From Micromonospora chokoriensis (lineage in GTDB: Bacteria; Actinomycetota; Actinomycetes; Mycobacteriales; Micromonosporaceae), in the NCBI RefSeq assembly GCF_000718555.1, contig NZ_JOAN01000015.1, positions 62,001 to 126,000 on the forward strand: 64,000 bases of DNA. The letters run 5' to 3'. Made by a program: the position numbers and the translations under genes. Positions 4,302-20,654 of the stretch are shown here, piece after piece (the stretch's first letter is position 1; each line of letters starts with the position of its first letter). The notes under the pieces are model-generated. The model saw nothing but the letters and a program-made list of their open reading frames with translations, had not been told where the DNA came from and did not search any database.

Positions 4302-5588
4302 TCAGGCGGAGGCGGGGGCGGGGATCGCCGGGGAGGTCGTCGGACGGCCGTCCTGCTCTGCGTTGAGCAACCGGCGCAGGGAGAGCGCGACCAGCGAGGC
4401 GACCAGGCAGCCGCCGACCACGGTCGCCACCCAGACCTTGCCGTCAGCGGCGCCGATGAGCGGGCCGGCGGTGACCGGGCCGATCACACCGCTGATCCCG
4501 AAGATCATCGAACTCATCGCGTTGTACCGGCCGCGTAGCTCGTCGGTGGCCAGCGCGTTGGTCAGCGCGGGCATCACCGGCGACAGCAACGTCTCGCCGA
4601 AGCCGAAGATCGCCGAGCAGGCCACCACGCACAGCGCGGCCAGGACGGCACCCTGGGTGCTGACCAGGTTGGCGGCGCCGAGGACCAGCCATGCGGTGGC
4701 GAACACCGCCCCGACGAGGGCCAGCGCGGCGGTGCGGCTGCGGCCCTCGATCCGGCGGATGACCAGGAGTTGAGCCAGCACGATCATCACGGTATTCGCC
4801 GCCAGCGCCCAGGCCACCACCCGTGGGCTCACCTCGGCGACCCGTACGGCGTACGCGGCGAAACCCACCTCGACCTGTGCGTAGCCGCAGGTGGTGAGGA
4901 TCAACCCGAAGATCACCAGCCGCCGGAACGGGCGGTCCCGGAGCACGGTCAGGTAGCCGCCGGCCGATGGCTCGTCGACGCCCCGACGGTTGCCGAGTCG
5001 GTGACCCACGCCGGGCAGGGTGAGCAGGATCAGGGCCGGCATCAGGTAGGTGACCGCGTCCAGCAGGTAGATCGCCTGGAAGGTGCCGGGCCGGGCGGTG
5101 TCGATGATCGCGCCGGAGGTCATGCCACCGATCCCGATGCCGAGGTTGAGCAGCGCGAAGTTCAGCCCGAAGACGCGTTGCCGCTCATCGTCGTCGGTCA
5201 GCGAGGCGAGGATGGTGTTCTGCCCGGACCAGATCGCCGAGCTGCCAACCGCGATCACCGTCATCACCGCGAACGCGGAGGCGCTCGAATCAACCAGGGC
5301 CAGCGAGCCGGTGCCCACCGCCTCGATCAGCAGGCACGGCAGCACCACCCGGCGGGCCCCGAATCGGTCGATCAGAGTCCCGCCCAGCGGCGACAGGGCC
5401 AGGGTGACCACGCCGTACCAGCCGATCACCAGCCCGGCCCGGGTGTCGGTGAGACCGCGTACGTCGGTCAGGTAGATGAAGAGGAACGGCAGGGTGAGGC
5501 CGCGCCCGATCGCCGACAGCACGGTGCCGACGAGGAGCCGGCGAGCTTCCGAACGGCGGGGGAGGGCGCGACGCAACATGACCGACAT
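4302..5588 (-). CDS. MFS transporter
   Basis: A major facilitator superfamily permease of about 428 residues with roughly 12 hydrophobic helices. The MFS loop 2-3 signature is visible as GGTLIDRFGARRVVLP. It probably exports a small molecule by proton antiport, as multidrug-type MFS proteins do; the substrate is unknown. Three in-frame ATG codons are possible (5609, 5588, 5579). I chose 5588, just before the basic stretch leading into helix 1, but none has a clear ribosome site. The longer frame upstream overlaps the promoter of the divergent gene at 5731 and is not used. It ends against the 5'-nucleotidase terminator. Confidence 0.88.
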   Translation of the reverse strand: MSVMLRRALPRRSEARRLLVGTVLSAIGRGLTLPFLFIYLTDVRGLTDTRAGLVIGWYGVVTLALSPLGGTLIDRFGARRVVLPCLLIEAVGTGSLALVDSSASAFAVMTVIAVGSSAIWSGQNTILASLTDDDERQRVFGLNFALLNLGIGIGGMTSGAIIDTARPGTFQAIYLLDAVTYLMPALILLTLPGVGHRLGNRRGVDEPSAGGYLTVLRDRPFRRLVIFGLILTTCGYAQVEVGFAAYAVRVAEVSPRVVAWALAANTVMIVLAQLLVIRRIEGRSRTAALALVGAVFATAWLVLGAANLVSTQGAVLAALCVVACSAIFGFGETLLSPVMPALTNALATDELRGRYNAMSSMIFGISGVIGPVTAGPLIGAADGKVWVATVVGGCLVASLVALSLRRLLNAEQDGRPTTSPAIPAPASA

Positions 5589-5730
5589 TCTGTTCGCCAG
5601 CTGCGACATCGCGCGAACGGTATTGACCGAGCCACGCCTTCGCCGGGGTGCTCGGGTGACCAATCCCACGAGGATGGACGCGGCGCGTTCGTTCGCCGTT
5701 GGTGTCCGCCGGGTCTGCGATGCTCTCCCG

Positions 5731-6204
5731 ATGACCGGCACCTGGCGACATCTGCCCGCTACCGCCCGCGCCATCGCGGTGACCGCTACCGCAGCTGTCG
5801 CCGCCGCCCAGACGCGCGACGGTGAGGTGTACGACGAGGCGGTCGATGGGCTCGCCGCGGACGAGCGATCTGGCCTGGTGCTCGGCGCAGTGGTGCGGCT
5901 GCTGCTGGAGGCGACCCATCCGGACGGGCTGGACGGCGACGACGTGCGGCAGGTGCTGGAGCGGTGCGTCCGGGCGGCGGCCCCCTGGCGACCGGACGTC
6001 GACCCGCACGTCGTGCTGGTCCTGCTGGCCGGGGCGCTCGGCGTGTACGACCCCGGCGAGGACGACTCGCCACCCGACCCGGCAGCGCTCGCCCGGCACG
6101 CCCCACTGCTCGTGGCCGACCTGCTGGCGGTGACGGGCCGACCGCTCGACGGCTACCTGAGCGCGGCGTTCACCGAGATCGAGCGCACCGAGCGGCACGA
6201 CTGA
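5731..6204 (+). CDS. Conserved hypothetical protein, 157 aa
   Basis: I do not recognise this family. The product is an acidic, alpha-helical-looking soluble protein rich in Ala, Leu and Asp, without signal peptide or membrane helix. A central stretch (VVLVLLAGALGVYDPGED) is hydrophobic but too short and charged around it to be a convincing helix span. The ATG at 5731 was chosen because the divergent MFS gene begins about 140 bases upstream and the longer frame has no ribosome site. It sits alone before the secreted-protein array. Confidence 0.6.
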   Translation: MTGTWRHLPATARAIAVTATAAVAAAQTRDGEVYDEAVDGLAADERSGLVLGAVVRLLLEATHPDGLDGDDVRQVLERCVRAAAPWRPDVDPHVVLVLLAGALGVYDPGEDDSPPDPAALARHAPLLVADLLAVTGRPLDGYLSAAFTEIERTERHD

Positions 6205-6310: not shown

Positions 6311-8920
6311 ATGGACAGACGTATGGCGGCGCGGCTTGCGGTCGTACCGCTGCTTGGTGGTGTGGGCCTGGTGGGGCCGGCGATGCCGGCGGTGGCGGCG
6401 GCCCCCGCGCCGGTCGCGAGAGCAACGGCCAGCCTGGCGAACGAGCTGTACGTGAGCGGCCAGGACTGCACGCCGGGCGCCGATGGCAGCGAAGCGGCGC
6501 CGTACTGCACGATCTCGGCGGCGGCGGCGGTGGCGCAGCCCGGCCAGACGGTGCTGGTGCAGCCCGGCAACTATCCGGAGACGGTCACCTTCACCCGGTC
6601 AGGCACGGCGACCGCACCCATCGTGTTCCGCGCGGTGAACGCCTTCGACGGCTGGGTCCACGTAGGTCGGACCGTCGGGTCGGACGTTACCGGCACGATT
6701 CTGTCTCTCAACCAGGTCCACGACGTGGTGGTGGACGGCTTCGTGTTGTACGGGCAAAGTATCAGCGCCTCGCCTGCCGTGGTGATCGATGGCTCGTCCC
6801 GGGTCACGCTGAACGGTGTCGCCGTGCAACAGACAAAGGTGCCGGCAGCGGTACGGGTCAGCGGTGCTTCCCACGACGTGACGATCAGCCGAAACTGGCT
6901 GATCAACCTCAATGACACCGGTAGCGTCGCTTTGGCTGTCGAAGGGGCCGCGACCGGCACAACGGTCATTGCCAATCAGGTCGCGGCCGGGCGGATCGGC
7001 GTCACCGACGCGCCCGGCACCACGGTCACCAACAACACGGTAACCGCGGCGTGCGGCCCGGGGATCGACATCACCGGCACCTCGCCCAACGTGACCATCG
7101 AGAACAACATCGTCAAGCCATTGAGTAGGCAGGTGGCCCTGTGTAGGGGGTCATACGCCGACGGTGCGATTTCGGTCTCGGCGGCTTCGTTGCCGGCCGT
7201 GGCCGACTACAACCTGATCGATCCGACGGTGGGCACTGCCCCGTATGTCTGGGCTGGCACCACGCACCCCACCTTGGATGCGTTTCGATCCGCCACCGGG
7301 CAGGGCGGGCACGACATCGCCGCTGATCCGTTGCTGGATACCCAGAGCGGCGGAATGCGGAGTTTCTTCCCCCTGAAGGCGGGCTCACCGGCGGTCGACT
7401 CGGCCAACGCGACGGCACGGGGCCTGCCCGCGACCGACATGTTGGGCAATTCGCACGCCGACGACCCAGCGGTGACCAACACCGGCACCGGCAATGGCTA
7501 CCACGACCGGGGTGCGGTCGAGCGGATCCTCGGCTTCAACTGGTACACGGAGCCATTCCGCCAGTCCGTCGGCGGCGGGCCACTGGACGGGACCGCTCGG
7601 AGCACGAACCATTCGACGTGGCAGTACGACGGCCCGGTGGGGACCTTCACCTACAAGTTCAGCGACTCGAAGTTCTACCGGGTGAGCCAGTCGCCGGAGG
7701 AGACTCACCGGTTCCGCCGCGCGGGCCGGGCCTGCGCCTACGTCCGCTCGAACTTCACCGGTAACCGTGAAGCGCCCGGCTCCTACAGCACCCTCTGCAC
7801 GGTTCTCGGGGCGCACTACACACCTGTGTCACCGACCCGGCTGCTCGACACCCGTAGCGCGATCGGAGTGGGAACGACCACCCCGATTCCCGCGAACTCC
7901 GAGGTGGTGCTGCCGCTCAGCAGCATCGGTGGCGTGCCGGTGGCGCGGATCAGTGCTGTGGTGTTGAACGTGACGGTGACCGAGCCGACGACGTCGGGCT
8001 TCCTGACCGTCTATCCGGACGGTACGGGGACGCCGAGCGCGTCGAACGTCAACTTCGTGGCCAGGGAGACGGTGCCGAACCTGGTCACCGTCCCGGTGGA
8101 GAACGGGAAGATCCGGATCCGGAACAGTAGCGGCGGCACCGTGCACGTGATCGCCGATCTTCAGGGCCAGTACAGCGCAGAGGGCCAGGGGTTCACCGCC
8201 CTCGCCCCGCAGCGTGCGCTCGACACCCGTACCTCCGGCGGTGCGTTCCCGCCGAACACCACCCGGCAGTTGGACCTTGTCGGGAGGATCCCAGCGAATG
8301 CCACCGCCGTCGTCCTCAACGTCACGGTGACCGGGCCGACGACGAGCGGCGTCCTGAAGGTCTTTCCCGCCGGTGCGGCGCTGCCCGCCGCCTCGAACCT
8401 GAACTTCGTCACCGGTCAGACCATTCCGAACCTGGTGACCACTCCGGTGGTTGCCGGCAAGGTGAGCATCCACAACCAGAGTTCCGGTAGCACGCACGTC
8501 GTCGCGGACGTGGCCGGTTACTTCGGGCCGGCCGGTCAGTTGACGTACGTGCCGAACTCCCCGGTTCGGATCGCCGACACCCGCGCTGACCCGAACCGCG
8601 GAAACCATCCACTCAATCCGCGCGAGTCGATCACGGTCTATAGCGACTTCGCGGCCGGCGGGAACTGCTCCTGCCCGTTCGTGGCGGCGATGGTGGCGAA
8701 CCTGACCGTCACTGCTCCGACCACGGCCGGCGTGCTGACCGCCCACCCGGCAGACGAGGCCCGACCGTCGGCGTCGAACGTCAACTTCGCCGCCGGGGAG
8801 ACCGCTTCCAACCTCGCCATCGTCGGGACGGGTCGCGGCACCGCGCTCTACAACAACAGCTCAGGCACCACGCACGCCATCGTGGATCAGTCTGGCGTCT
8901 TCATCAAGCCGCTGTACTGA
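6311..8920 (+). CDS. Secreted beta-helix / triple LDTR-module protein, paralog 1
   Basis: An 869-residue secreted protein and the first of four tandem paralogs. Order: signal peptide (about 1-35); a right-handed parallel beta-helix domain (about 45-390) opening with a Cys pair ending PYCTISAAAAV and closing with a SPAVDSA...DRGAVE anchor-Q-like end; a linker with KVGGGPLD-like and RAGxxC...C motifs (about 410-500); then three modules of about 115-120 residues, each opening with an LDTR or ADTR motif and containing NVTVT-PTTSG, SNxNFV-ET and a final VIADLQG-like strand. Beta-helix proteins of this kind bind or cleave polysaccharides; no catalytic residues are evident. Start: ATG at 6311 after GGGGGTG. 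Six Cys outside the modules are shared by all paralogs, implying disulfides. Function unknown. Confidence 0.85.
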   Translation: MDRRMAARLAVVPLLGGVGLVGPAMPAVAAAPAPVARATASLANELYVSGQDCTPGADGSEAAPYCTISAAAAVAQPGQTVLVQPGNYPETVTFTRSGTATAPIVFRAVNAFDGWVHVGRTVGSDVTGTILSLNQVHDVVVDGFVLYGQSISASPAVVIDGSSRVTLNGVAVQQTKVPAAVRVSGASHDVTISRNWLINLNDTGSVALAVEGAATGTTVIANQVAAGRIGVTDAPGTTVTNNTVTAACGPGIDITGTSPNVTIENNIVKPLSRQVALCRGSYADGAISVSAASLPAVADYNLIDPTVGTAPYVWAGTTHPTLDAFRSATGQGGHDIAADPLLDTQSGGMRSFFPLKAGSPAVDSANATARGLPATDMLGNSHADDPAVTNTGTGNGYHDRGAVERILGFNWYTEPFRQSVGGGPLDGTARSTNHSTWQYDGPVGTFTYKFSDSKFYRVSQSPEETHRFRRAGRACAYVRSNFTGNREAPGSYSTLCTVLGAHYTPVSPTRLLDTRSAIGVGTTTPIPANSEVVLPLSSIGGVPVARISAVVLNVTVTEPTTSGFLTVYPDGTGTPSASNVNFVARETVPNLVTVPVENGKIRIRNSSGGTVHVIADLQGQYSAEGQGFTALAPQRALDTRTSGGAFPPNTTRQLDLVGRIPANATAVVLNVTVTGPTTSGVLKVFPAGAALPAASNLNFVTGQTIPNLVTTPVVAGKVSIHNQSSGSTHVVADVAGYFGPAGQLTYVPNSPVRIADTRADPNRGNHPLNPRESITVYSDFAAGGNCSCPFVAAMVANLTVTAPTTAGVLTAHPADEARPSASNVNFAAGETASNLAIVGTGRGTALYNNSSGTTHAIVDQSGVFIKPLY

Positions 8921-8934
8921 CCCGTTCGCCCACG

Positions 8935-8965
8935 GCGGCCACACTCCTCGTCGGGGTGTGGCCGC
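8935..8965. terminator. Terminator hairpin after paralog 1
   Basis: A 13-bp stem (8935-8947 with 8953-8965, one G-T pair) and a five-base loop lie 14 bases after the stop of paralog 1. Paralog 2 is therefore probably transcribed at least partly from its own promoter. Confidence 0.75.
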
Positions 8966-9028
8966 TGTGCCACGGAAGCCGCTTGGCAATCACGCTGAGT
9001 TCGATCATTTCTCTTACGGGGGCAAGTC

Positions 9029-11638
9029 ATGACCGTCCGACGTTGGGCGAGGTTCACGCTCGTACCACTGCTTGGCGGCGCGGCGCTGGTGGGGCCCGCG
9101 GCGCCGGCCGTGGCCGCACCCGTCGCGGCCGCGCCGGTGACCGTCGCGGCGGCCGGCGGTGAGCTGCACGTCAGCGAGCAATGGTGCCTCAGCAGCGGTG
9201 ACGGCACCGAGCAGCGGCCGTTCTGCACCATCTCGGCGGCAGCGGCGGTGGCCGGCCCGGGTCAGACGGTGCTGATCCATCCGGGGGAGTACCTGGAGAC
9301 GGTCCGGTTCACCCGATCCGGCACCGAGGGTGCGCCGATCACCTTCCGGGCAGTCAACGTCAAGTGGCAGATGGCCCGGGTCGGCAACTTCGACACGACG
9401 GTCGGGACCGGCGCCGTCCTCGACCTCACCAACGTGCACGACGTGACGGTGGAGGGTCTGGTCGTGTTCGGGGCGAATCTCGCCGACGCCGTGACGGTGC
9501 GGGACTCCCGCCGGGTCCGCCTCGACAAGCTCACCATCCACAACGGGCTCGGCGGCCTCACCGGTGTGCGGATCAGCGGCCAGTCGAATGAGGTGATGTT
9601 CAGTCGGAGCGTCATCCGGGCCGCACAGGGACCGTCGGTGACCGTCGAGCCCGGCGTGACCGGTACGACCATCACCGCGAACGTGCTCGACAACTCCGGC
9701 CTCGTCGCTACCGACGCCGTCGGCCTGGCCGTCACCGGAAACACGGTCTACGTCGACTGTCGTCGTGGCATCGATGTGGCCGGGCGTTCCCCCGGCGCCG
9801 CGATCCACAACAACATCGTCGTCACGGCGCGTCAGCGCAAGCGCTGCACCACCCCAGCGAACGCGGCCGGCATCCGGGTGTCCGCCGAGTCCGTGCCCGG
9901 GACCAGCACCGACTACAACCTGATCGAACCGTTGAGCGGTGGAGCACCCTACAACTGGGCGGGCACTGACTATCCGGACCTAGCCGCGTTCGTGGCGGCG
10001 ACGGGACTTGCCACGCACGACCTCGCGGCTGACCCGAAGCTCGTGTGGACGAACGCCCTGCACCGCGACTACCTGTTGACGCTCGGGGGTTCGCCGGCCC
10101 GGGACTCCGCCGACGCCACCGCCGTGGGTGTCCTGGACACCGACCTGCTCGACAGCTCCTTCGCTGATGATCCGGGTGTGCCGAACACCGGCACCGGCAG
10201 CGGCTACCGCGACCGAGGAGCGGTCGAGGGTGGCTCGCAGGTCACCGAGGATCCGGTACGTGTCGAACGCAAGGTGGGTGGCGGGCCGCTCGATATCGTC
10301 GCGCGTGCCGGCTGGCACCAGACCTGGACGGTCGAGCGGGATCGGGCCCAGTACGCGTATCACCTCGACGGTGAGCACTTCTGGCGGGTGAGCGACGTCG
10401 CCACCATGGAGTACACGCTGCGGCGAGCCGGCGATGCCTGCGTCCAGGTCCAGATCAGCGTGTCCGACTTCCGGATGCCCGCTGGTGGCGAAGAGCGGGT
10501 CTGCACCCAGGTCGGCGCGCGCTACGTACCGATCACCCCGACCCGACTGCTGGACACCCGGGCACCGATCGGTGTGCCCGCCTCGCGGCCGGTGGCAGGC
10601 TTCGGAACGATCGAACTGCCGGTCGGCATCATCGGCGGCGTCCGGGACACGGACATCAGCGCGGTCGTGCTCAACGTGACGGTCACCCAGCCGACCTCCG
10701 CCGGCTTCATAAGTGTCTTTCCGGGCGGCGACTGGAGCGACGCATCCAGCGTCAACTTCGTGGCGGGGGAGACCGTGCCGAATCAGGTCACCGTGCCGGT
10801 ACGCAACGGGTCGGTGAAGTTCTACAACGCAAGCTCGGGCACCGTCCATCTGGTCGCCGACCTGCAGGGTTTCTATGCCGCGGCGGGATCCGGCTTCGCG
10901 TCGGCGTCGCCGACCCGGGTCCTCGACACCCGGGAGGGCGTGGGAACCCCGATCGCCGCCAAGGGCACCCGAGTCCTCGACCTGTCCGGCCGGCTGCCCG
11001 CCACCGCGACGGCGGCCGTGCTCTCCGTGACAGTCACCGCGCCGAAGACGGGCGGTGTGCTCACCGTCTACCCGTACGGCTCGGCGGCGCCCACCGCGTC
11101 GAGTCTCAATTTCGTCGCCGGACAGACCATCCCCAACCTGGTCACCGTGCCGGTGGTGAACGGTCGGGTCAGCATCTTCAACAACAGTTCCGGCACCACC
11201 CACGTCATTGCGGATCTGGCCGGATGGTTCAGCCCGGACGCCACCCAGACGTTCGTCCCGATGACGCCGAAGCGGATCGTCGACTCCCGGAACAGCACCG
11301 GGCTGCCCGGCCGGACCCCGGCTCCCCTCGCCGCTCGGGAGACCGTCCGGTTCGCGCCGATGCGCAGTGCTCTGGTCTGTAACCCGGCCTGCCCCGCCCC
11401 CACCGCGCTGTTGGGGAACGTGACAGTCACCGCGCCGACCACGCCGGGCCTGCTCACCCTCTACCCCGGCGGTGGATCGCGACCCACTTCCTCGAACGTC
11501 AACTTCGTCGCCGCTGAGACCGCGTCGAACGCCGGGGTGGTCGCCGTGGGCGCCGGCATCGACCTCTTTCACAACAGCGGCGGTACGTCCCACGTCATCG
11601 TGGACCAGTCCGGCTACTTCATCGCCGCCGCGTCCTGA
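9029..11638 (+). CDS. Secreted beta-helix / triple LDTR-module protein, paralog 2
   Basis: An 869-residue paralog with the same architecture as paralog 1: signal peptide ending near residue 35, beta-helix region with Cys pairs (WCLSSG...PFCTISAAAAV and DCRRGID...RCTTP), linker with RAGDAC...VCTQVGA, and three LDTR modules (LDTRAPIG, LDTREGVG, VDSRNSTG). The third module carries a Cys pair (VCNPAC). The ATG at 9029 is preceded by GGGGGCAAG. No Asp/Lys/Arg cluster typical of pectate lyases could be picked out, so an enzymatic role is not supported. A surface adhesin, polysaccharide binder or spore/hyphal coat protein are all possible. Confidence 0.85.
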   Translation: MTVRRWARFTLVPLLGGAALVGPAAPAVAAPVAAAPVTVAAAGGELHVSEQWCLSSGDGTEQRPFCTISAAAAVAGPGQTVLIHPGEYLETVRFTRSGTEGAPITFRAVNVKWQMARVGNFDTTVGTGAVLDLTNVHDVTVEGLVVFGANLADAVTVRDSRRVRLDKLTIHNGLGGLTGVRISGQSNEVMFSRSVIRAAQGPSVTVEPGVTGTTITANVLDNSGLVATDAVGLAVTGNTVYVDCRRGIDVAGRSPGAAIHNNIVVTARQRKRCTTPANAAGIRVSAESVPGTSTDYNLIEPLSGGAPYNWAGTDYPDLAAFVAATGLATHDLAADPKLVWTNALHRDYLLTLGGSPARDSADATAVGVLDTDLLDSSFADDPGVPNTGTGSGYRDRGAVEGGSQVTEDPVRVERKVGGGPLDIVARAGWHQTWTVERDRAQYAYHLDGEHFWRVSDVATMEYTLRRAGDACVQVQISVSDFRMPAGGEERVCTQVGARYVPITPTRLLDTRAPIGVPASRPVAGFGTIELPVGIIGGVRDTDISAVVLNVTVTQPTSAGFISVFPGGDWSDASSVNFVAGETVPNQVTVPVRNGSVKFYNASSGTVHLVADLQGFYAAAGSGFASASPTRVLDTREGVGTPIAAKGTRVLDLSGRLPATATAAVLSVTVTAPKTGGVLTVYPYGSAAPTASSLNFVAGQTIPNLVTVPVVNGRVSIFNNSSGTTHVIADLAGWFSPDATQTFVPMTPKRIVDSRNSTGLPGRTPAPLAARETVRFAPMRSALVCNPACPAPTALLGNVTVTAPTTPGLLTLYPGGGSRPTSSNVNFVAAETASNAGVVAVGAGIDLFHNSGGTSHVIVDQSGYFIAAAS

Positions 11639-11699
11639 TTGGGCGGCGTGGGCCGTCCGTTTTCGCCCTTATTGCAGATCCACATTATGGAGATGATCG

Positions 11700-14315
11700 A
11701 TGAGACGGTCTGCCATGGCGGGGCTCGCGCTCCTGCCGCTGGCTGCTGGCGCGGGCCTGGTGGTCCCGGCGGCGGCCGCATCCGCCACTGTCGTGCGGGC
11801 GCCCGCGCCGAGCGCAACCGGTGTCGAGTTGCACGTGAGCAACACGAGATGCGTGACGGGCGGTGACGGCAGCCTGGTAGCCCCGTTCTGCACCATCTCG
11901 GCGGCAGCCGCCGTGGCCGAACCCGGCCAGGTCGTCCTGGTCCATCCCGGCACCGAATACCGGGAGTCGGTGGTCATCAGCCGATCGGGGACCGAGGGTG
12001 CGCCGATCACCTTCCGGGCGGTGAACGGCCCGGGTCAGAGTGCCACCGTGGTCAAGGTGGGTAAGCGACGCGGCGCCAATGGCAGCGAGAGCGCGTTCAC
12101 TCTTCGCGGCGTCCACGACGTGGTCCTCGACGGCTTCCAGGCTTCCGGTGAGGGCACCGCCGAGGCCGTCCTCGTCGACGCGTCCACCCGGATCACCCTG
12201 GACCGGCTTGTGGTCGGCGAGTACGACGCCCGGGCGGCGGTTCGGATCACCGGCACCTCCCAGGACGTCACGATGAGCCGTGGCGCATTCACGCCGGGCA
12301 GTGGCCTGGCGGTGGATCCGGGGGTACGCGGTGCGCTGGTGACCGCGAGCACCTTCACCCAGAGCGGTATCACGGTGCGGGACGCGCCGGGCACGAAGAT
12401 CGTCGGCAACACCCTGGAGACCGACTGCACGTTGGCGATCGACGTCATCGGCACGTCGCCGGGGGTGTCGATCCGCAACAACATCCTGGAGACCGCCACC
12501 GGCCCGCTCAGTGACGCGGTGGCGTGCGAGGTGCCGGCGGAGGCCACTGCCATCGCCGTCTCGGCGGACAGCGTCGCGCAGACCGTGTCGGACTACAACC
12601 TGATCGAGCCGGCCAGCGGCGGCCCGCTCTACCGGTGGGGTGGCACCGAGTACACCAGCCTGCCCGAGTTCGTCGCCGCCACCGGTCACGGCCGGCACGA
12701 CATCGCCGCGACCCCGTGGCTGTCGGCGGAGCCGGCGTACGAGCGGCCGTACTACAAGATCGACCGGAACTCGCCGGCCATCGACTCGGCCGATGCCGCC
12801 GCCGAGGGTGTCTCTCGCACCGACCTGCTGGACAACCCGCACTCTGACGACCCCGACGTCCCCAACACCGGCACCGGCTCGGGTTACCACGATCGGGGTG
12901 CGGTCGAGGCACAGGGCCCGACGACGGTCACCGAGGTGCCGGTCCGACGCAAGGTCGGCGGCAGCCCCATGGACGTGACCGTCGGCATCTCCGTCACCAC
13001 CGCCTGGCGTACGGACGGCCCGCTGGGCAAGGTGTCGCGCAGTTGGGGCGACGAGCCGTTCCGCCGGATCGTTCAGATCGGGCCGGAGGAGCACCGCTTC
13101 CGGCGTGCCGGTAGCGCCTGCGAGACCCACCAGGTGACCTTCACTGACTTCCGCTTCACCTATGGCGCCCCCAAGACCACCTGCACCGTGGTCGGTGCCA
13201 CCTACACCGCCCTTGCGCCGCTGCGGGTGCTGGACACCCGCAGTGCGCTCGGAGTGCCGGGATCCGTGCCGATTCCGGCGAACACCGAGGTCGTGCTGGC
13301 GCTGCCCCGGATCAACGGGGTGCCGGCCGCAGACCTCAGCGCGGTCGTGCTGAACGTGACTGCCACCGCGCCGACCACCGCCGGGTTCCTGCGGGTCTAC
13401 CCGGACGGCACCACCCTGCCGGACGCGTCGACAGTCAACTTCGTGCCCGGTGAGACGGTGCCGAACCTGGTCACCGTGCCGATGACCAACGGCAACCTGC
13501 GCATCCGCAACAGCGCCAGCGGCACGGTCCACGTCGTCGCGGATCTGCAGGGCTACTACTCGGCAGGTGGTTCCGGGTTCCGGTCGGTCGCTCCGTCACG
13601 GGTGCTGGACACCCGCGATGCCGGCAACTCAGCGTTCGCCCCGAACACCGGTCGGACGCTGGACCTGACCGGTCGAATTCCGTCCGGGGCGACGGCAGTG
13701 GTGGTCAACATGACCGTGACCGGGCCGACGACGAACGGGGTGCTCACCGTCCACCCGTACGGCACGGCGGTGCCGACGGCGTCGAATCTGAACTTCGTCG
13801 CCGGGCAGACCATTCCGAACCTGGTGATGGTGCCGGTGGTCAACGGGAAGCTGGCCATTCAGAACGTCAGCTCCGGTCGTACCCACGTGGTTGTCGATCT
13901 TGCCGGCTGGTTCGGCGGCGGTGCCACGGACGTCTTCGTGCCGTTCGGCCCGCGCCGCATCCACGACACCCGAGGGGCTGCCGGCGAGGGCTGGCCGCAG
14001 GCGCCGATCACTTCGACAGGCGTGCCTGTCCCGTACCTCGACCCGATGTTCGACAAGACGGCACCGAAGCCGACGGCCGTGGTGGCGAACCTGACCGTCA
14101 CCGCGCCGACCAAGGCCGGCGTGCTCACCGCCTACCCGAACGGATCGGGCCAGCCCACCGCGTCGAACGTCAACTACGTCGCAGGTGAGACCGCCTCGAA
14201 CCACGCCATCGTGGGCGTCGGTGAAGACAGCAACATCGTGCTGTTCAACAACAGTTCCGGATACACCCATACGGTCGTGGACCAGGCGGGTTACTTCATC
14301 GCCGCCGCACGCTGA
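11700..14315 (+). CDS. Secreted beta-helix / triple LDTR-module protein, paralog 3
   Basis: An 871-residue paralog of its neighbours: signal peptide, beta-helix, KVGGSPMD and RAGSAC linker, three LDTR/HDTR modules. It differs from the other three in the third module, where the Cys pair is absent and replaced by a Pro/Asp/Lys segment (VPYLDPMFDKTAPKPTA). The ATG at 11700 follows GGAG by nine bases. The 61-base gap from paralog 2 holds only a weak hairpin, so these two may be co-transcribed. It shares with the family the SNVNxVAGETASN motif near the C-terminus and ends in the strand pattern VVDQAGYFIAAA. Confidence 0.85.
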   Translation: MRRSAMAGLALLPLAAGAGLVVPAAAASATVVRAPAPSATGVELHVSNTRCVTGGDGSLVAPFCTISAAAAVAEPGQVVLVHPGTEYRESVVISRSGTEGAPITFRAVNGPGQSATVVKVGKRRGANGSESAFTLRGVHDVVLDGFQASGEGTAEAVLVDASTRITLDRLVVGEYDARAAVRITGTSQDVTMSRGAFTPGSGLAVDPGVRGALVTASTFTQSGITVRDAPGTKIVGNTLETDCTLAIDVIGTSPGVSIRNNILETATGPLSDAVACEVPAEATAIAVSADSVAQTVSDYNLIEPASGGPLYRWGGTEYTSLPEFVAATGHGRHDIAATPWLSAEPAYERPYYKIDRNSPAIDSADAAAEGVSRTDLLDNPHSDDPDVPNTGTGSGYHDRGAVEAQGPTTVTEVPVRRKVGGSPMDVTVGISVTTAWRTDGPLGKVSRSWGDEPFRRIVQIGPEEHRFRRAGSACETHQVTFTDFRFTYGAPKTTCTVVGATYTALAPLRVLDTRSALGVPGSVPIPANTEVVLALPRINGVPAADLSAVVLNVTATAPTTAGFLRVYPDGTTLPDASTVNFVPGETVPNLVTVPMTNGNLRIRNSASGTVHVVADLQGYYSAGGSGFRSVAPSRVLDTRDAGNSAFAPNTGRTLDLTGRIPSGATAVVVNMTVTGPTTNGVLTVHPYGTAVPTASNLNFVAGQTIPNLVMVPVVNGKLAIQNVSSGRTHVVVDLAGWFGGGATDVFVPFGPRRIHDTRGAAGEGWPQAPITSTGVPVPYLDPMFDKTAPKPTAVVANLTVTAPTKAGVLTAYPNGSGQPTASNVNYVAGETASNHAIVGVGEDSNIVLFNNSSGYTHTVVDQAGYFIAAAR

Positions 14316-14330
14316 CCCACGTACGCGCGC

Positions 14331-14371
14331 AAGCCGGTGCCCCCCCGCGAGCAGCGGGTGGGCACCGGTTT
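14331..14371. terminator. Terminator hairpin after paralog 3
   Basis: A 12-bp outer stem (14331-14342 with 14360-14371, one G-T pair) continues into a 5-bp inner CCCGC/GCGGG stem. The 3' side runs into GGTTTGG, giving a short T-stretch. Confidence 0.75.
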
Positions 14372-14478
14372 GGCTTCACGGCCAGGCAGCAGCCACCTGA
14401 TCGCCGATCTCACGCATAGCCATACGTCGGTATAGGCTGCCTCGCGTCAAGGTGATCTATTTTCAGCGGGGGCTGTTG

Positions 14479-17109
14479 GTGAGAAGAAGACTGTGGTCGC
14501 TGGTGGTCGTACCAGTGGTTGGTGGGGTGAGCCTGGTCGGGCCGATGACGCCCGCGGGAGCGGCACCGGCCCCCGCGCAGGCGGTGCCCGCGTCCGGCTC
14601 CGAGGTGTACGTCAGTAAGAGTTGTCCGTTCCCTGCCTTGGCGGACGGAACGGCCGACCGTCCGTACTGCACGATCTCGGCCGCCGCGGCGGTGGCACAG
14701 CCGGGGCAGACCGTCCTCGTGCAGATCGGCTCCTACGTGGAGAAGGTGGTGGTCAGCCGCTCGGGCTCCAGCGGTGCGCCGATCACCTTCCGGGCGGCGA
14801 ACGGTCCGGACGGCTTCGTCACGTTGAGCGCGCCGGCCGGAGGCAACGCGATCTCGCTCGCCGGGGTGCACGACGTCCGGGTCGAGGGTTTCTCGCTGCG
14901 GTCGTCCGGCACCGCCGAGCCGGTCCTGATCGACGGGGCCACCCGGGTGACCGTGGACGGGCTCACGGTCCGTGCGCCGGCCGGCGTGAGCGGAGTGCGC
15001 GTCACCGGGGCGTCGAGTGACGTGACCGTCAGCCGGGGCTGGTTCAGCGCTTCCGGTGCGCCCGGGGTGGCGATCGGTGCCGGTGTGGCTCGTGCCGTGG
15101 TCAGCGGCAACCAGTTCCGGGGTGGCCTCACGGTCACCGATGCCCCCGGCACGGCGATCACCGGGAACACGCTGGTGACCGGCTGCGCGTCCGGTATCAC
15201 CGTGACCGGCTCCTCGCCGGGAGTGGAGATCCGCAACAACATCGTGCAGACCGCCGACGTGTCCGGCAGCGCCCCCGCCGCGTGCGCTGACCCGGCTGCG
15301 GCCACCGCGATCGCTCTCTCGGCCGGTTCGGTCGGGCAGAGCGTCGCCGACTACAACCTGATCGACCCGGTGAGTGGCGCTGCCCTGTACAACTGGGGAG
15401 ACACTTCTTACGCGGACCTTGCGGCGTTCCGGGCGGCGACCGACCAGGGCGCCCACGACATTGCCGCCGACCCGAAGCTCAAGGCACAGCAGGGCACGGA
15501 ACGGCCGTGGATCGCTCTCGATCGCACGTCGCCGGCGGTCGACTCGGCGGACGCGGGTGCGACCGGCTCCGCTCCGGTCGACCTGCTCGGCAACTCCCGT
15601 GCCGATGTGCCGGAGGTGCCGAACACCGGCACCGGCTCGGGGTACCGCGACCGCGGCGCGGTCGAGATCGCCAGCCCGTGGACCGGCAGCAACGACGTCA
15701 CCGTCAGCCGGAAGGTGGGCGGCGGCCCTTACGACATCGTGACCCGGCTGCCCTGGACCTCCGCGTGGCCGGTGGAGACGGTTGCCGGCAACTTCGCCTA
15801 TCGCGCGACCGACTCCCGTTTCATGGAGCTGGCCAGCAGCCCGGTCCACGAGCAGACGGTGCGCCGGGCCGGCCAAACCTGCGTTCGAGTGTTCACGAGC
15901 GGGGACGGCTTCCGGATCCTCAACGACTTCGACCTGCCCAAGGGCAGCTGCACGGTGGTCGGCGCCCGGTACAACCCGGTCACTCCGACCCGCCTGCTGG
16001 ACACCCGGTCCGGGGTCGGAGTCGGCACCTCCGTGCCGGTCGGGCCCAACTCCGAGGTGCTGCTTCCGGTTCCGAGCATCGGCGGTGTGCCAGCGGCCAA
16101 CATCGACGCCGTGGTGCTGAACGTGACGGCGACCCAGCCGACGGCGAGCGGCTTCCTCACCGTCTACCCGGACGGCGTCACTGCGCCAACCGCGTCGAGC
16201 GTCAACTACGTCGCCAAGGAGACGGTGCCGAACCTGGTCACCGTGCTGCTGACGAGCGGGGGGATCCGATTCCGCAACAGCAGCAGCGGCACCGTGCACG
16301 TCATCGCCGACCTACAGGGTTGGTTCGGCGCTTCCGGGTCGGGTTTCAAGCCGCTCACCCCGGTACGGGTGGCTGACAGCCGGGAGGGTACCGGCGGCCC
16401 GTACCTGCCGGACACGTCGCGGCAGCTCGACCTCTCGTCGAAGGTTCCAGCCGACGCGACCGCCGTGATCCTGAACGTGACGGCCACCGCTCCGGCGACA
16501 GCCGGAGTGCTGAAGGTGTACCCGGGCGGTTCGCTGGTGCCGGTCGCGTCCAACCTGAACTTCGTGGCGGGTCAGACGATCCCCAACCTGGTTATGGTGC
16601 CGGTTATCAACGGCAAGGTGAGCATCTACAACCAGAGTTCCGGCACCGTGCACGTGCTCGCCGACCTGGCCGGATACTTCGGGTCCGCGTCCTCCGGCGC
16701 CGACCAGACCTACGTGCCGTACGGCCCGCGCCGGGTCGTCGACACCCGGGACGGCACCGGGTTGCCGTCGCGGCCGGTCGGACCGGTCGCGTCGAACTCC
16801 CTGATCAGCTTCAAGCCGGCGAACGTGCAGGCCAACCCTTACTGCGCGAGCGGCGTACTGCAGTGTCCGACCGCGGTGGTGGCCAACCTGACGGTTACCG
16901 GACCGACCAAGGCCGGCCTGCTCATCGGGTATCCGTCGCACCTGCCGCGGCCGACGGCGTCGAACGTCAACTTCGTCGCCGGGGAGACGGCCTCCAATCT
17001 GGCCGTCATCGGGACCGAGATGGGTGGGGCGTCGCTCTACAACGCCAGCTCGGGCAGCACCGACGTGATCGTCGACCAGGCGGGCTACTTCATCGCCGCC
17101 GCGTCCTGA
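14479..17109 (+). CDS. Secreted beta-helix / triple LDTR-module protein, paralog 4
   Basis: An 876-residue paralog and the last of the array. The GTG at 14479 was preferred to an upstream ATG at 14452 because it follows GGGGG by six bases and gives a basic N-terminus (VRRRLW) aligned with the other three signal peptides. The beta-helix domain again opens with a Cys pair before YCTISAAAAV, and the linker has KVGGGPYD and RAGQTC. Three modules follow (LDTRSGVG, ADSREGTG, VDTRDGTG), the third with a Cys pair (YCASGVLQC). It is separated from paralog 3 by a terminator, so it has its own promoter. Role unknown; probably extracellular and disulfide-stabilised. Confidence 0.85.
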   Translation: MRRRLWSLVVVPVVGGVSLVGPMTPAGAAPAPAQAVPASGSEVYVSKSCPFPALADGTADRPYCTISAAAAVAQPGQTVLVQIGSYVEKVVVSRSGSSGAPITFRAANGPDGFVTLSAPAGGNAISLAGVHDVRVEGFSLRSSGTAEPVLIDGATRVTVDGLTVRAPAGVSGVRVTGASSDVTVSRGWFSASGAPGVAIGAGVARAVVSGNQFRGGLTVTDAPGTAITGNTLVTGCASGITVTGSSPGVEIRNNIVQTADVSGSAPAACADPAAATAIALSAGSVGQSVADYNLIDPVSGAALYNWGDTSYADLAAFRAATDQGAHDIAADPKLKAQQGTERPWIALDRTSPAVDSADAGATGSAPVDLLGNSRADVPEVPNTGTGSGYRDRGAVEIASPWTGSNDVTVSRKVGGGPYDIVTRLPWTSAWPVETVAGNFAYRATDSRFMELASSPVHEQTVRRAGQTCVRVFTSGDGFRILNDFDLPKGSCTVVGARYNPVTPTRLLDTRSGVGVGTSVPVGPNSEVLLPVPSIGGVPAANIDAVVLNVTATQPTASGFLTVYPDGVTAPTASSVNYVAKETVPNLVTVLLTSGGIRFRNSSSGTVHVIADLQGWFGASGSGFKPLTPVRVADSREGTGGPYLPDTSRQLDLSSKVPADATAVILNVTATAPATAGVLKVYPGGSLVPVASNLNFVAGQTIPNLVMVPVINGKVSIYNQSSGTVHVLADLAGYFGSASSGADQTYVPYGPRRVVDTRDGTGLPSRPVGPVASNSLISFKPANVQANPYCASGVLQCPTAVVANLTVTGPTKAGLLIGYPSHLPRPTASNVNFVAGETASNLAVIGTEMGGASLYNASSGSTDVIVDQAGYFIAAAS

Positions 17110-17120
17110 GCACCGTTTTC

Positions 17121-17151
17121 GGAGCCGGCACCGCATTGCGGTGCCGGCTCC
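17121..17151. terminator. Terminator hairpin after paralog 4
   Basis: A perfect 14-bp stem (17121-17134 with 17138-17151) with an ATT loop, 11 bases after the stop. It closes the four-gene array. Confidence 0.85.
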
Positions 17152-17401
17152 GGCTGTCTCCGGGCAACAGTTAGCGGCACCGCTGACCAGTCGATCACTC
17201 ATCACTCATCACGACTCCGCCGAGGCGCAGAAGGTTGAAGGCCAGCAGCGCTCGCGTCGCGCAACGTTCACCTGAGAGAGCCGGTTACCAGCGGGTTTGG
17301 CTGAACCGAACGGTTCGAGGTGTCGTCGTAACGACCGGAACTGGCAGGTAGGACATGTTGTCTGGGGGATGGGCGTGGACGGCGGGCACCTGGGACGATC
17401 C

Positions 17402-18296: not shown

Positions 18297-20342
18297 TCAG
18301 AGGATCACGATGGTGAACTTCTCCGCGGTCCCGATCGACGAACGATTGGCGATCAGGGGGCTGGCGCCGGAGTTGGCGGCGCTCACGTACATGCCGTTCA
18401 CCTTCGCCCGAAGGCTGATCGTGTTGTCCGAGTTGCGGACCAACGTGAAGGTCTCCCACCCGCCGACGGCGGCCCGGTTGGCGATCAGCGGCTTCGTGCC
18501 GGCCTCCGCCGCGCTCACGTACATGTTGTTGATCTTCGCGCGCAACGCGATGTTGCCGCTGCCCAGGTCAACCATCTCGAACGGTTCCCAGACCCCGATC
18601 CCGGCAGCACCGGCGATCAGGCTGTCCGCACCGGCGTACGAGCAGCTGACGTACTTCTTGTTGACCACGGCCTGCAGAGCGATCGGCCCGATGGGCAGCG
18701 TGGGCCCCGACGTGGGCGGGGTCTGCCCGGTCGGGTTCTGGGTGACGGCCTGCCAGAAGTTGATGTTCAGCGGCCCGCCCACGAACTCCAGCCGGACGGT
18801 GTGGTGCTTACCCGCCGGGAGGCTGAAGGCGCCCGCGTCGATCGTCTGGTAGCTCTGCCAGTCGCCGGTGTTCGGCACGGAGATGGTCGGTCCGGCGACG
18901 CCGTCGATGACGAAGCGAAGCTTGGCGTCCGTGTTCGGCGTGGCGACCCGGGCCTTCATCGTGACCGAGTTCTGCAGCGGAATCTCCTGCCACTGCAACC
19001 ACTCGCCATTGCTGGTGGAGCCGACGTTCCAGCCGCCCCCGGAGTCCGGGGTGGTCTGCACGTCGACGTCGCCGGCCCGGTAGACGTTGTACGCGTTGCC
19101 CGAGGTGCTGTCGCTGTAGCTGTCCGCGGTCTCCGCCTCGACCCGCAGATCGGTGGGGAACGGGTTCTTGGAGTACCGCCGCAGGATGTTCAACATCTGG
19201 TTGGGGTAGTCGACCCGCCGCTGGGCGTACGTCCCGGAGGCCATCCGCCAGGTCGCCGCGTTCTCCTCCCAGTCCGTGAAGCCCTCGACCAGGGTCGCCG
19301 CCGCGCCGTTGTTCACCGTGGTGTTGAGGTTGCTGGCGAAGGTCTGGCCGTGGTTCGGGTCGATCACCATGTTGGTGCTGTCTCGCACCACGTAGAACCC
19401 CGGTACGGCCACGCCGTAGCTGCGGCCGTTGAAGGTGGTGAGGGAGCGCCCACCGCTGGGCATGCTGAACCAGGAGTTCGAGCCGTTCGCGACGGCGCTG
19501 ACCGCCGAATCGCGCTCCATCCAGGTGCGGTCGAGGTTGAAGAACGGGTCGACCCCGAACTCCGCCTTTGCCCGGTCGCGGACGTGCTGCAACATCTTCG
19601 CGGCGTTACCGCCACCCTGGTGAACGAAGAAGGTGTCGCTCAACGACCACTCGTACACCACCGGCTTCCCGTCAATCTTGAAACGCAGATTGTCCGGTAC
19701 GGCGGTGAAGAAGGCCCGCAGGTTGTTGTCCCAGATGTACTTGTAACCACCCTCGCCGGTGCCGGCCGCGTCGGCGATGTCGAAGGGCGGGTCGTAGCCG
19801 CCGCGGTTGTGCACCGCCATGTTCTTCTGATCGGTCATCGAGGCCGGAGTGTCGTCGAAAGCGGCGATCTTGAGCCGGTCGGCGACACCCCGACGGTTGA
19901 TCGCGTCGACGAGCTCGCTCAGCATCCGCGGGTCACCCCCGCCGTTGGGCACCGCGGTCCCCGGGACGTACCCGCGCAGCACGGGGGCGACGAAGTCGAC
20001 CCCGGCGCTCGTCAGCTCCTCGACGTAGTTGTCCCAGAACTTCGCCCGGTCACCGGTGGTGACCAGGTACGACGGCAGGTTGTAGGTCGTGCTGCCGAAG
20101 CCGGGGTAGGAACCGTTGAGGGTGCCCCCGCTCAACCCGAACGTCACACCGACTGGTCCGGTCCCGCCGGCCGTACGGCCGGGCAGGCTGGTGCCGCTGG
20201 TGACGACCACCGGGGTGGTTGCCGCGGCGGCACTCGTCGTGGTTGCGCCCACCGCGCCGACCGGAAGGACCAGGGCGAGCCCCAGCATGGCCGCGGTGCG
20301 ACGCATGGTCCTCGGAGTGGTTTTCTCGGGCTTGTCGCTCAT
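18297..20342 (-). CDS. Secreted DUF5010-type glycoside hydrolase-like protein with CBM and fascin-like trefoil
   Basis: A 681-residue secreted protein. A signal peptide covers about residues 1-40. The first 380 residues resemble DUF5010 proteins, a presumed TIM-barrel hydrolase family; conserved-looking acidic stretches include AAFDDTPAS, YEWSLSDTF and EGFTDWEENA, where a catalytic pair may lie. A CBM6/35-like module follows (about 390-525, opening RVEAETADSYSD). The C-terminus is three repeats of about 44 residues (YVSCSYAGA, YVSAAEAGT, YVSAANSGA), a fascin-like beta-trefoil. The start at 20342 has AAGGGTG at ideal spacing. It probably binds and acts on a polysaccharide outside the cell; hydrolysis itself is inferred, not shown. 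Confidence 0.8.
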   Translation of the reverse strand: MSDKPEKTTPRTMRRTAAMLGLALVLPVGAVGATTTSAAAATTPVVVTSGTSLPGRTAGGTGPVGVTFGLSGGTLNGSYPGFGSTTYNLPSYLVTTGDRAKFWDNYVEELTSAGVDFVAPVLRGYVPGTAVPNGGGDPRMLSELVDAINRRGVADRLKIAAFDDTPASMTDQKNMAVHNRGGYDPPFDIADAAGTGEGGYKYIWDNNLRAFFTAVPDNLRFKIDGKPVVYEWSLSDTFFVHQGGGNAAKMLQHVRDRAKAEFGVDPFFNLDRTWMERDSAVSAVANGSNSWFSMPSGGRSLTTFNGRSYGVAVPGFYVVRDSTNMVIDPNHGQTFASNLNTTVNNGAAATLVEGFTDWEENAATWRMASGTYAQRRVDYPNQMLNILRRYSKNPFPTDLRVEAETADSYSDSTSGNAYNVYRAGDVDVQTTPDSGGGWNVGSTSNGEWLQWQEIPLQNSVTMKARVATPNTDAKLRFVIDGVAGPTISVPNTGDWQSYQTIDAGAFSLPAGKHHTVRLEFVGGPLNINFWQAVTQNPTGQTPPTSGPTLPIGPIALQAVVNKKYVSCSYAGADSLIAGAAGIGVWEPFEMVDLGSGNIALRAKINNMYVSAAEAGTKPLIANRAAVGGWETFTLVRNSDNTISLRAKVNGMYVSAANSGASPLIANRSSIGTAEKFTIVIL

Positions 20343-20654
20343 AGTCACCCTTCTTGGCTGCTGTGATCTGTCGGGTTCTCGAACACCGGAACCGCACTGG
20401 GAGACCAGTCATGGGCATGTTCGGGACGGCCCCCATTGCTGGCCGGTCGACACGGCCGGGGCTCCCGGGAGTGCAGTGCGTGTCCGGTCCGTGCCCCTCT
20501 GCATGGCCGGTGATCCGCCACCAAACTGGACGAATGGCGAGACCTGGCCACTCGGACGACGGCTGCTGGGCCGGCTTGGTTCAACAATTCCGGCAACCCA
20601 ATGCACGCGATCCCGAGGTTGCTGTCCGTACCGTGGGAGCGCCGGAAACGAATC

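Follow-up and report, generated by a model that had tools for sequence, protein, structure and literature searches.

How proteins other than sortase substrates are retained on the surface of Actinomycetota is, to our knowledge, poorly understood. Two described anchor systems use domains in triplicate, and passages of the reports on SLH and CWB2 describe their triplets as acting as one unit that holds proteins on wall polymers (PMC4973711, PMC6081394). The SLH domains of Firmicutes wall anchors occur as three tandem copies per protein which are described as set about a threefold and having a helical core, and the CWB2 domains of the Clostridioides difficile cell wall proteins (CWPs) are described as three non-identical tandem copies, placed at either end of the protein and jointly needed for anchoring. 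ChiW of Paenibacillus FPU-7 is described as a surface protein that combines a beta-helix of lyase-like form with Ig-like domains, two GH18 catalytic domains and an SLH surface anchor, and its CBM-54 beta-helix binds chitin, chitosan, glucan, xylan and cellulose with undetectable cleavage (PMC5132251). In the mosaic adhesive trimers (MATs) of Bdellovibrio, the fiber tip exemplified by Bd2133 contributes one domain per chain to a three-chain trimer. Here we describe an array of four genes in a 64,000-nucleotide stretch of Micromonospora chokoriensis (contig NZ_JOAN01000015.1, hereafter the window), each encoding a protein that ends in three copies of a module with the opening LDTR or a variant of it. 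Like SLH, the LDTR module comes as three tandem copies per protein; in contrast to SLH it is all-beta, mainly actinobacterial and without an SLH match, and it differs from CWB2 in fold and phyla and shows no sequence match to it. We tentatively read the four proteins as a display part joined to a glycan-holding, pseudo-trimeric triplet, a reading that, taken whole, falls just short of probable, and the triplet may work like SLH and CWB2.

Architecture of the array proteins

The four genes follow one another on the plus strand at 6311-8920, 9029-11638, 11700-14315, and 14479-17109 and encode 869, 869, 871, and 876 residues, the last counted from the GTG at 14479 (the open frame starts at an upstream GTG, 14452, and would give 885 residues if read from there). 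Copies 2-4 have 50-53% identity to copy 1 in full-length alignment. Together with the coordinates, this bears out the sequence-only reading of the window, which had proposed four successive paralogs with a common order of parts. Each has a signal-like N-terminus, a beta-helix, a small beta-domain, and three LDTR modules. The predicted structure of copy 1 (predicted template modeling score, pTM, 0.85) likewise contains the beta-helix that had been proposed to follow an N-terminal signal, the beta-domain, and three beta modules, the last in keeping with the three per protein found in all four genes.

The 12 modules, all on the plus strand, were cut at 120-138 residues each, with adjoining cuts overlapping slightly: 7802-8197, 8177-8545, and 8531-8920 in copy 1; 10508-10888, 10880-11239, and 11237-11638 in copy 2; 13188-13569, 13563-13925, and 13920-14315 in copy 3; and 15955-16337, 16330-16697, and 16696-17109 in copy 4. 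Modeled in isolation, module 1 of copy 1 (A2) gave a predicted local distance difference test (pLDDT) of 88.9 and a pTM of 0.83. The best VIA match of the module model was the Bd2133 fiber tip. It is a moderate match in fold, with 13% identity when the structures are aligned, and the matched domain is reported to be trimeric. Matches in BFVD include phage tail fibers. Bd2133 was absent from the PDB sequence search results for A2 and A4 and from the Foldseek matches listed. PDB sequence searches with A2 and A5 gave no match, and the best with A4 (E 0.021) was an agarase chain.

The expectation that the module has no name was borne out in Pfam, NCBIfam, PHROGs, and PDB sequences. Nothing in the first three databases matched the module above cut-off, and DUF7196 (E 0.0064, 17.1 bits against a cut-off of 27), S_layer_C (E 0.0077), and phrog_5400 (E 0.0071) were rejected as weak; no paper on the module was among those listed in searches of the open-licence PMC literature. 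SLH and CWB2 profiles were not listed in Pfam for the four proteins or the 12 modules (both to E 1) or for 15 diverse modules (to E 0.1), and no SLH or CWB2 chain was among the 50 VIA matches listed for either model. Judged by profile, then, the array proteins are not members of SLH, CWB2, or choice-of-anchor Q, and as far as these searches reach, the module family, its count rule (below), and its link to a trimeric fiber tip appear to be new.

The right-handed beta-helix of copy 1 (6437-7525, plus strand, residues 43-405) has a choice-of-anchor-Q-like end. Pfam Beta_helix (PF13229) scored above its cut-off of 25.9 bits in three of the four copies (37.8, 30, and 32.1 bits; copy 3 reached 17.6), and DUF1565 was above cut-off in two. 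As to the proposed anchor-Q-like end, NCBIfam choice_anch_Q matched copies 1 (22.5 bits) and 4 (18.4 bits), both under its cut-off of 25; no match was listed for copies 2 and 3. As for the supposed bridging of the helix by cysteines, all four aligned copies share C66, C248, C278, C475, and C496 (C53 is displaced by one column in copy 4), and the conserved cysteines presumably form bridges. The KVGG(G/S)P/RAGxxC region, previously taken for a linker, instead belongs to a folded beta-domain (7526-7804, plus strand, residues 406-498) that holds C475 and C496 and has seven strands between residues 409 and 499 in the copy 1 model. It is the least conserved of the five parts (30-38% identity between window paralogs).

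Number of LDTR modules per protein

Three is the prevailing number of modules. In a set of 149 collected module proteins, biased toward one family and a three-module query, 140 had three modules, seven had six, and two had five, and both five-module proteins were truncated or fused with remnants. Complete frames in 91 loci comprised 86 with three modules, 10 with two, 19 with one, and none with more (genome loci 81, 10, and 11; viral loci 5, 0, and 8), and several of the ones and twos were neighboring frames that seem to sum to three (L060, L092, L094, L127). We also counted modules in 28 genomes in full. Eleven are all the positives outside Micromonospora from a search of 61 genomes; the other 17 come from a search of 79, which gave 26 positives besides the genome of the window. 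These yielded 103 groups (64 threes, one frame-split three, 10 twos, and 28 ones) and no intact run of four or five. When 22 of the 38 ones and twos were re-read (several of the other 16 lie at contig ends or are shorter than 270 bases), four became threes by hidden Markov model (L154, L158, L159, and the first of L160) and two by eye (the second of L160, and L163), one stayed a two (L157), and 15 stayed single. Because re-reading moved six frames to three, the raw counts of ones and twos are too high. Unlike the LDTR module, PKD and fn3 varied freely in copy number in small control samples: in 11 of the 28 genomes PKD occurred in 15 groups of one copy, four of two, four of four, and one each of six and seven, and in seven of the 28 fn3 occurred in nine groups of one, three of two, two of three, and one of six.

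The triple is a C-terminal cap in 76 of the 86 cases, and the secreted domains that it caps are unrelated to one another. Across 30 representative triples, which include two Micromonospora array members and two viral loci, modules of one protein resemble each other more (53-58%) than do modules in the same place in different proteins (41-46%), suggesting that the number three has persisted through repeated re-making of the modules. In the Micromonospora family modules 1, 2, and 3 have become distinct: their labels change 2, 3, and 2 times on the tree, compared with about 35 times when shuffled. Since such clustering by position is seen there but not across the 30 triples, an old shared triplet is not general.

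Distribution and partners of the module

The array proteins had been supposed to be family-specific, a claim that the wider searches do not support. With residues 498-869 as query, 7985 candidates were scored and 7569 of them matched. For a module with more than 7,500 matches in a single search that usually comes in threes, it can be asked directly whether Actinobacteria use it as others use SLH and CWB2, and a profile built from it would give a name to thousands of proteins now called hypothetical. The 78 loci on genome contigs belong, by title, to many Actinomycetota, Chloroflexota metagenome-assembled genomes (MAGs), two Rudaea, and one "Planococcus", and the module is also present at 13 loci on viral contigs and in 14 plasmid records, 10 of them from Streptomyces. 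The combination of beta-helix and triplet itself extends to Kitasatospora, Streptomyces, and a Pseudonocardiales MAG. In five genomes that share a family within the phylum Actinomycetota (G279, G354, G364, G396, G427), all 22 candidates scored per genome matched, 22 being the cap, and many more candidates lay beyond it; the module has probably been greatly expanded in them. INPHARED phages gave no match to one diverse module as query, which leaves a phage origin of the array unsupported. A thirteenth, weaker module of the window's genome (E 2.5e-13) lies outside the array at G000:C4:162466-162858 (L013), as a single divergent copy on a protein with a twin-arginine-like start; proteins like it, with one module each, occur in L147 and L155.

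In 37 module proteins, of which 28 have three modules and nine have one or two, the Pfam domains found beside the module include FG-GAP, subtilase, beta-helix, Amidase_2, PQQ propellers, GH16, and cutinase. Ten triples scanned singly gave three beta-helices, two subtilases, two kumamolisin propeptides, and no amidase. Wall-acting proteins with six modules were an amidase and a CHAP protein (P0131, P0129), and L119 is an amidase with two. On viral contigs, L141-L143 are endolysin-like proteins that end in a single LDTR-like module, with Amidase_2 in L141 and L142, and terminase, portal, and head protease genes lie near the endolysin of L142. Three-module proteins also occur on contigs classed as viral (L134, L136), the second in a set of which one member matched glucose/sorbosone dehydrogenase.

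A candidate single-chain trimer

In the reading we favor, the four genes would encode secreted surface proteins composed of a display part and a holder. The holder would be the C-terminal LDTR triplet, three tandem beta-sandwiches arranged around a pseudo-threefold axis, a single chain thereby building what fiber proteins build from three. The triplet would bind a glycan non-covalently, and the likeliest candidate is an envelope polymer of the producing cell itself; the displayed part would be the beta-helix, seated on the small beta-domain and probably binding, less likely cleaving, a polysaccharide. The architecture, the prevalence of three modules, the moderate fold match, the synteny, and the age of the paralogs are observed here, and from them we go on to infer the trimer packing, the position of the axis, the ligand, and the role of the beta-helix. 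That the triplet is a pseudo-trimer is fairly probable: the count rule and the fiber-tip fold match both favor the functional trimer-like unit guessed at from sequence, and on the packing itself they and the pTM of the copy 1 model bear indirectly. If it is, a wall glycan would be the ligand with somewhat better than even likelihood, and the C-terminal position of most triplets and the wall-acting partners weakly favor such a ligand. Modules on peptidoglycan amidases, a CHAP protein, and a phage endolysin suggest wall targeting. The amidase partners traced carry six, two, or one module and never three (counts that leave out the third Amidase_2 member of the 37-protein set), which weighs against this reading.

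The fiber-tip resemblance could also point outward, with the triplet a pseudo-trimer for outside targets (prey, host, or substrate glycans) and the proteins adhesins or substrate-targeting rather than wall-anchored. Its best VIA match is after all the fiber tip of a predator, phage tail fibers appear among the BFVD matches, and glycan binding is reported for one MAT tip, Bd2439, which has another, tumor necrosis factor (TNF)-like fold. The wall-acting partners and the prevalence of C-terminal caps, as in general anchors, argue to the contrary, and we consider this explanation unlikely. If the modules were instead independent tandem carbohydrate-binding modules working by avidity, three would be merely the preferred number; the 103 groups without an intact run of four or five, when six does occur in 7 of 149 proteins, and the free variation of PKD and fn3 make that highly doubtful.

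The beta-helix poses a separate choice. In a structure search with the copy 1 model, the fold neighbors of residues 43-405 included Pel9A, PL6, and related lyases. The helix could thus itself cleave polysaccharides, as a lyase or a hydrolase, and the four proteins would then be enzymes that degrade the wall or a substrate. However, the neighbors vary in activity and some, e.g., NosD and PfbA, are non-enzymes, no enzyme family model was above cut-off for the four proteins in Pfam or NCBIfam, and the CBM-54 of ChiW is reported to be a lyase-like beta-helix that acts as a pure binder (PMC5132251). We therefore regard an enzymatic role as quite unlikely and a binding role as reasonably probable, and on the ChiW precedent the four paralogs may be read as proteins kept at the surface that bind polysaccharides through beta-helices which have diverged. 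The surface polymer binder suggested by the sequence-only reading would fit both the partners and these fold neighbors.

A broader proposition, which we advance tentatively and with the balance against it, is that the LDTR triplet adds a third, previously unrecognized class to the surface anchors that work in threes, and that its fold is that of a fiber tip. It would be a natural single-chain version of a trimeric fiber head, with one module per chain in trimeric proteins and three (or six) in monomeric ones, spread across Actinomycetota and Chloroflexota, from which phage endolysins would have borrowed it. If true, it would be a natural experiment in turning a three-chain fiber head into one chain, perhaps usable as a surface-targeting part for enzymes.

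Genomic context of the array in Micromonospora

The hairpins noted after copies 1, 3, and 4 were located, without strand, at 8931-8969 (17-nucleotide arms, 88%), 14330-14372 (19-nucleotide arms, 89%), and 17120-17152 (16-nucleotide arms, 100%). An inverted-repeat scan of the window listed none after copy 2, which is separated from copy 3 by 61 bases. The copies may have separate promoters; scanning gave no promoter-like sites and one T-run terminator-like site, within copy 1, against 3.9 expected. On the 5' side lie a 5'-nucleotidase-like gene, a major facilitator superfamily (MFS) transporter gene, and a frame (5476-6204) without a Pfam match, and on the 3' side, in order, a DUF5010/CBM35 gene, tRNA-Pro, and a penicillin-binding protein (PBP) gene. 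The first of these 3' genes (18297-20348, minus strand; DUF5010, CBM35, and DUF7910) had no tblastn match at 1e-10 in the fetched loci of 16 relatives.

A search with copy 1 returned 250 proteins, and among the 120 listed the named organisms were Micromonospora except for one Actinoplanes. Matches at 1e-30 were found in 34 of 151 Micromonospora genomes, the window's included, and 11 of the 34 carry full-length proteins by our reading of the match rows; since scoring covered the top candidates of each genome, copy numbers are lower bounds. In nine other genomes the array adjoins the same MFS gene, with two to five copies and some arrays at contig ends, the PBP gene also falls within the fetched stretch in four of the nine, and tRNA-Pro was found in five of six such loci scanned. 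Forty of 42 beta-helix frames were full, each with exactly three modules 3' of the helix, and the other two are halves of a single gene split by the edge of the fetched stretch. The MFS gene is present (at 1e-80) in 8 of 14 module-less Micromonospora, where it lies 3.5-5.7 kb from the PBP gene in six and 12 and 18 kb in two, as against 16.6 kb in the window. In the tree each of the window's four copies falls in with copies from other genomes and not with its fellows. This indicates old paralogs that have been retained, lost, and gained at a single site, and it disfavors a recent origin of the four by duplication as well as gene conversion between them. One of the 40 full frames (L045, in G173, 6478-10200) also holds remnants of two upstream modules, as if a neighboring copy had decayed, and P0127 has the same layout. 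Other Micromonospora arrays (L049 in G014, L050 in G008, and L051 in G036) encode three-module proteins without this beta-helix, some of them with another N-terminal part.
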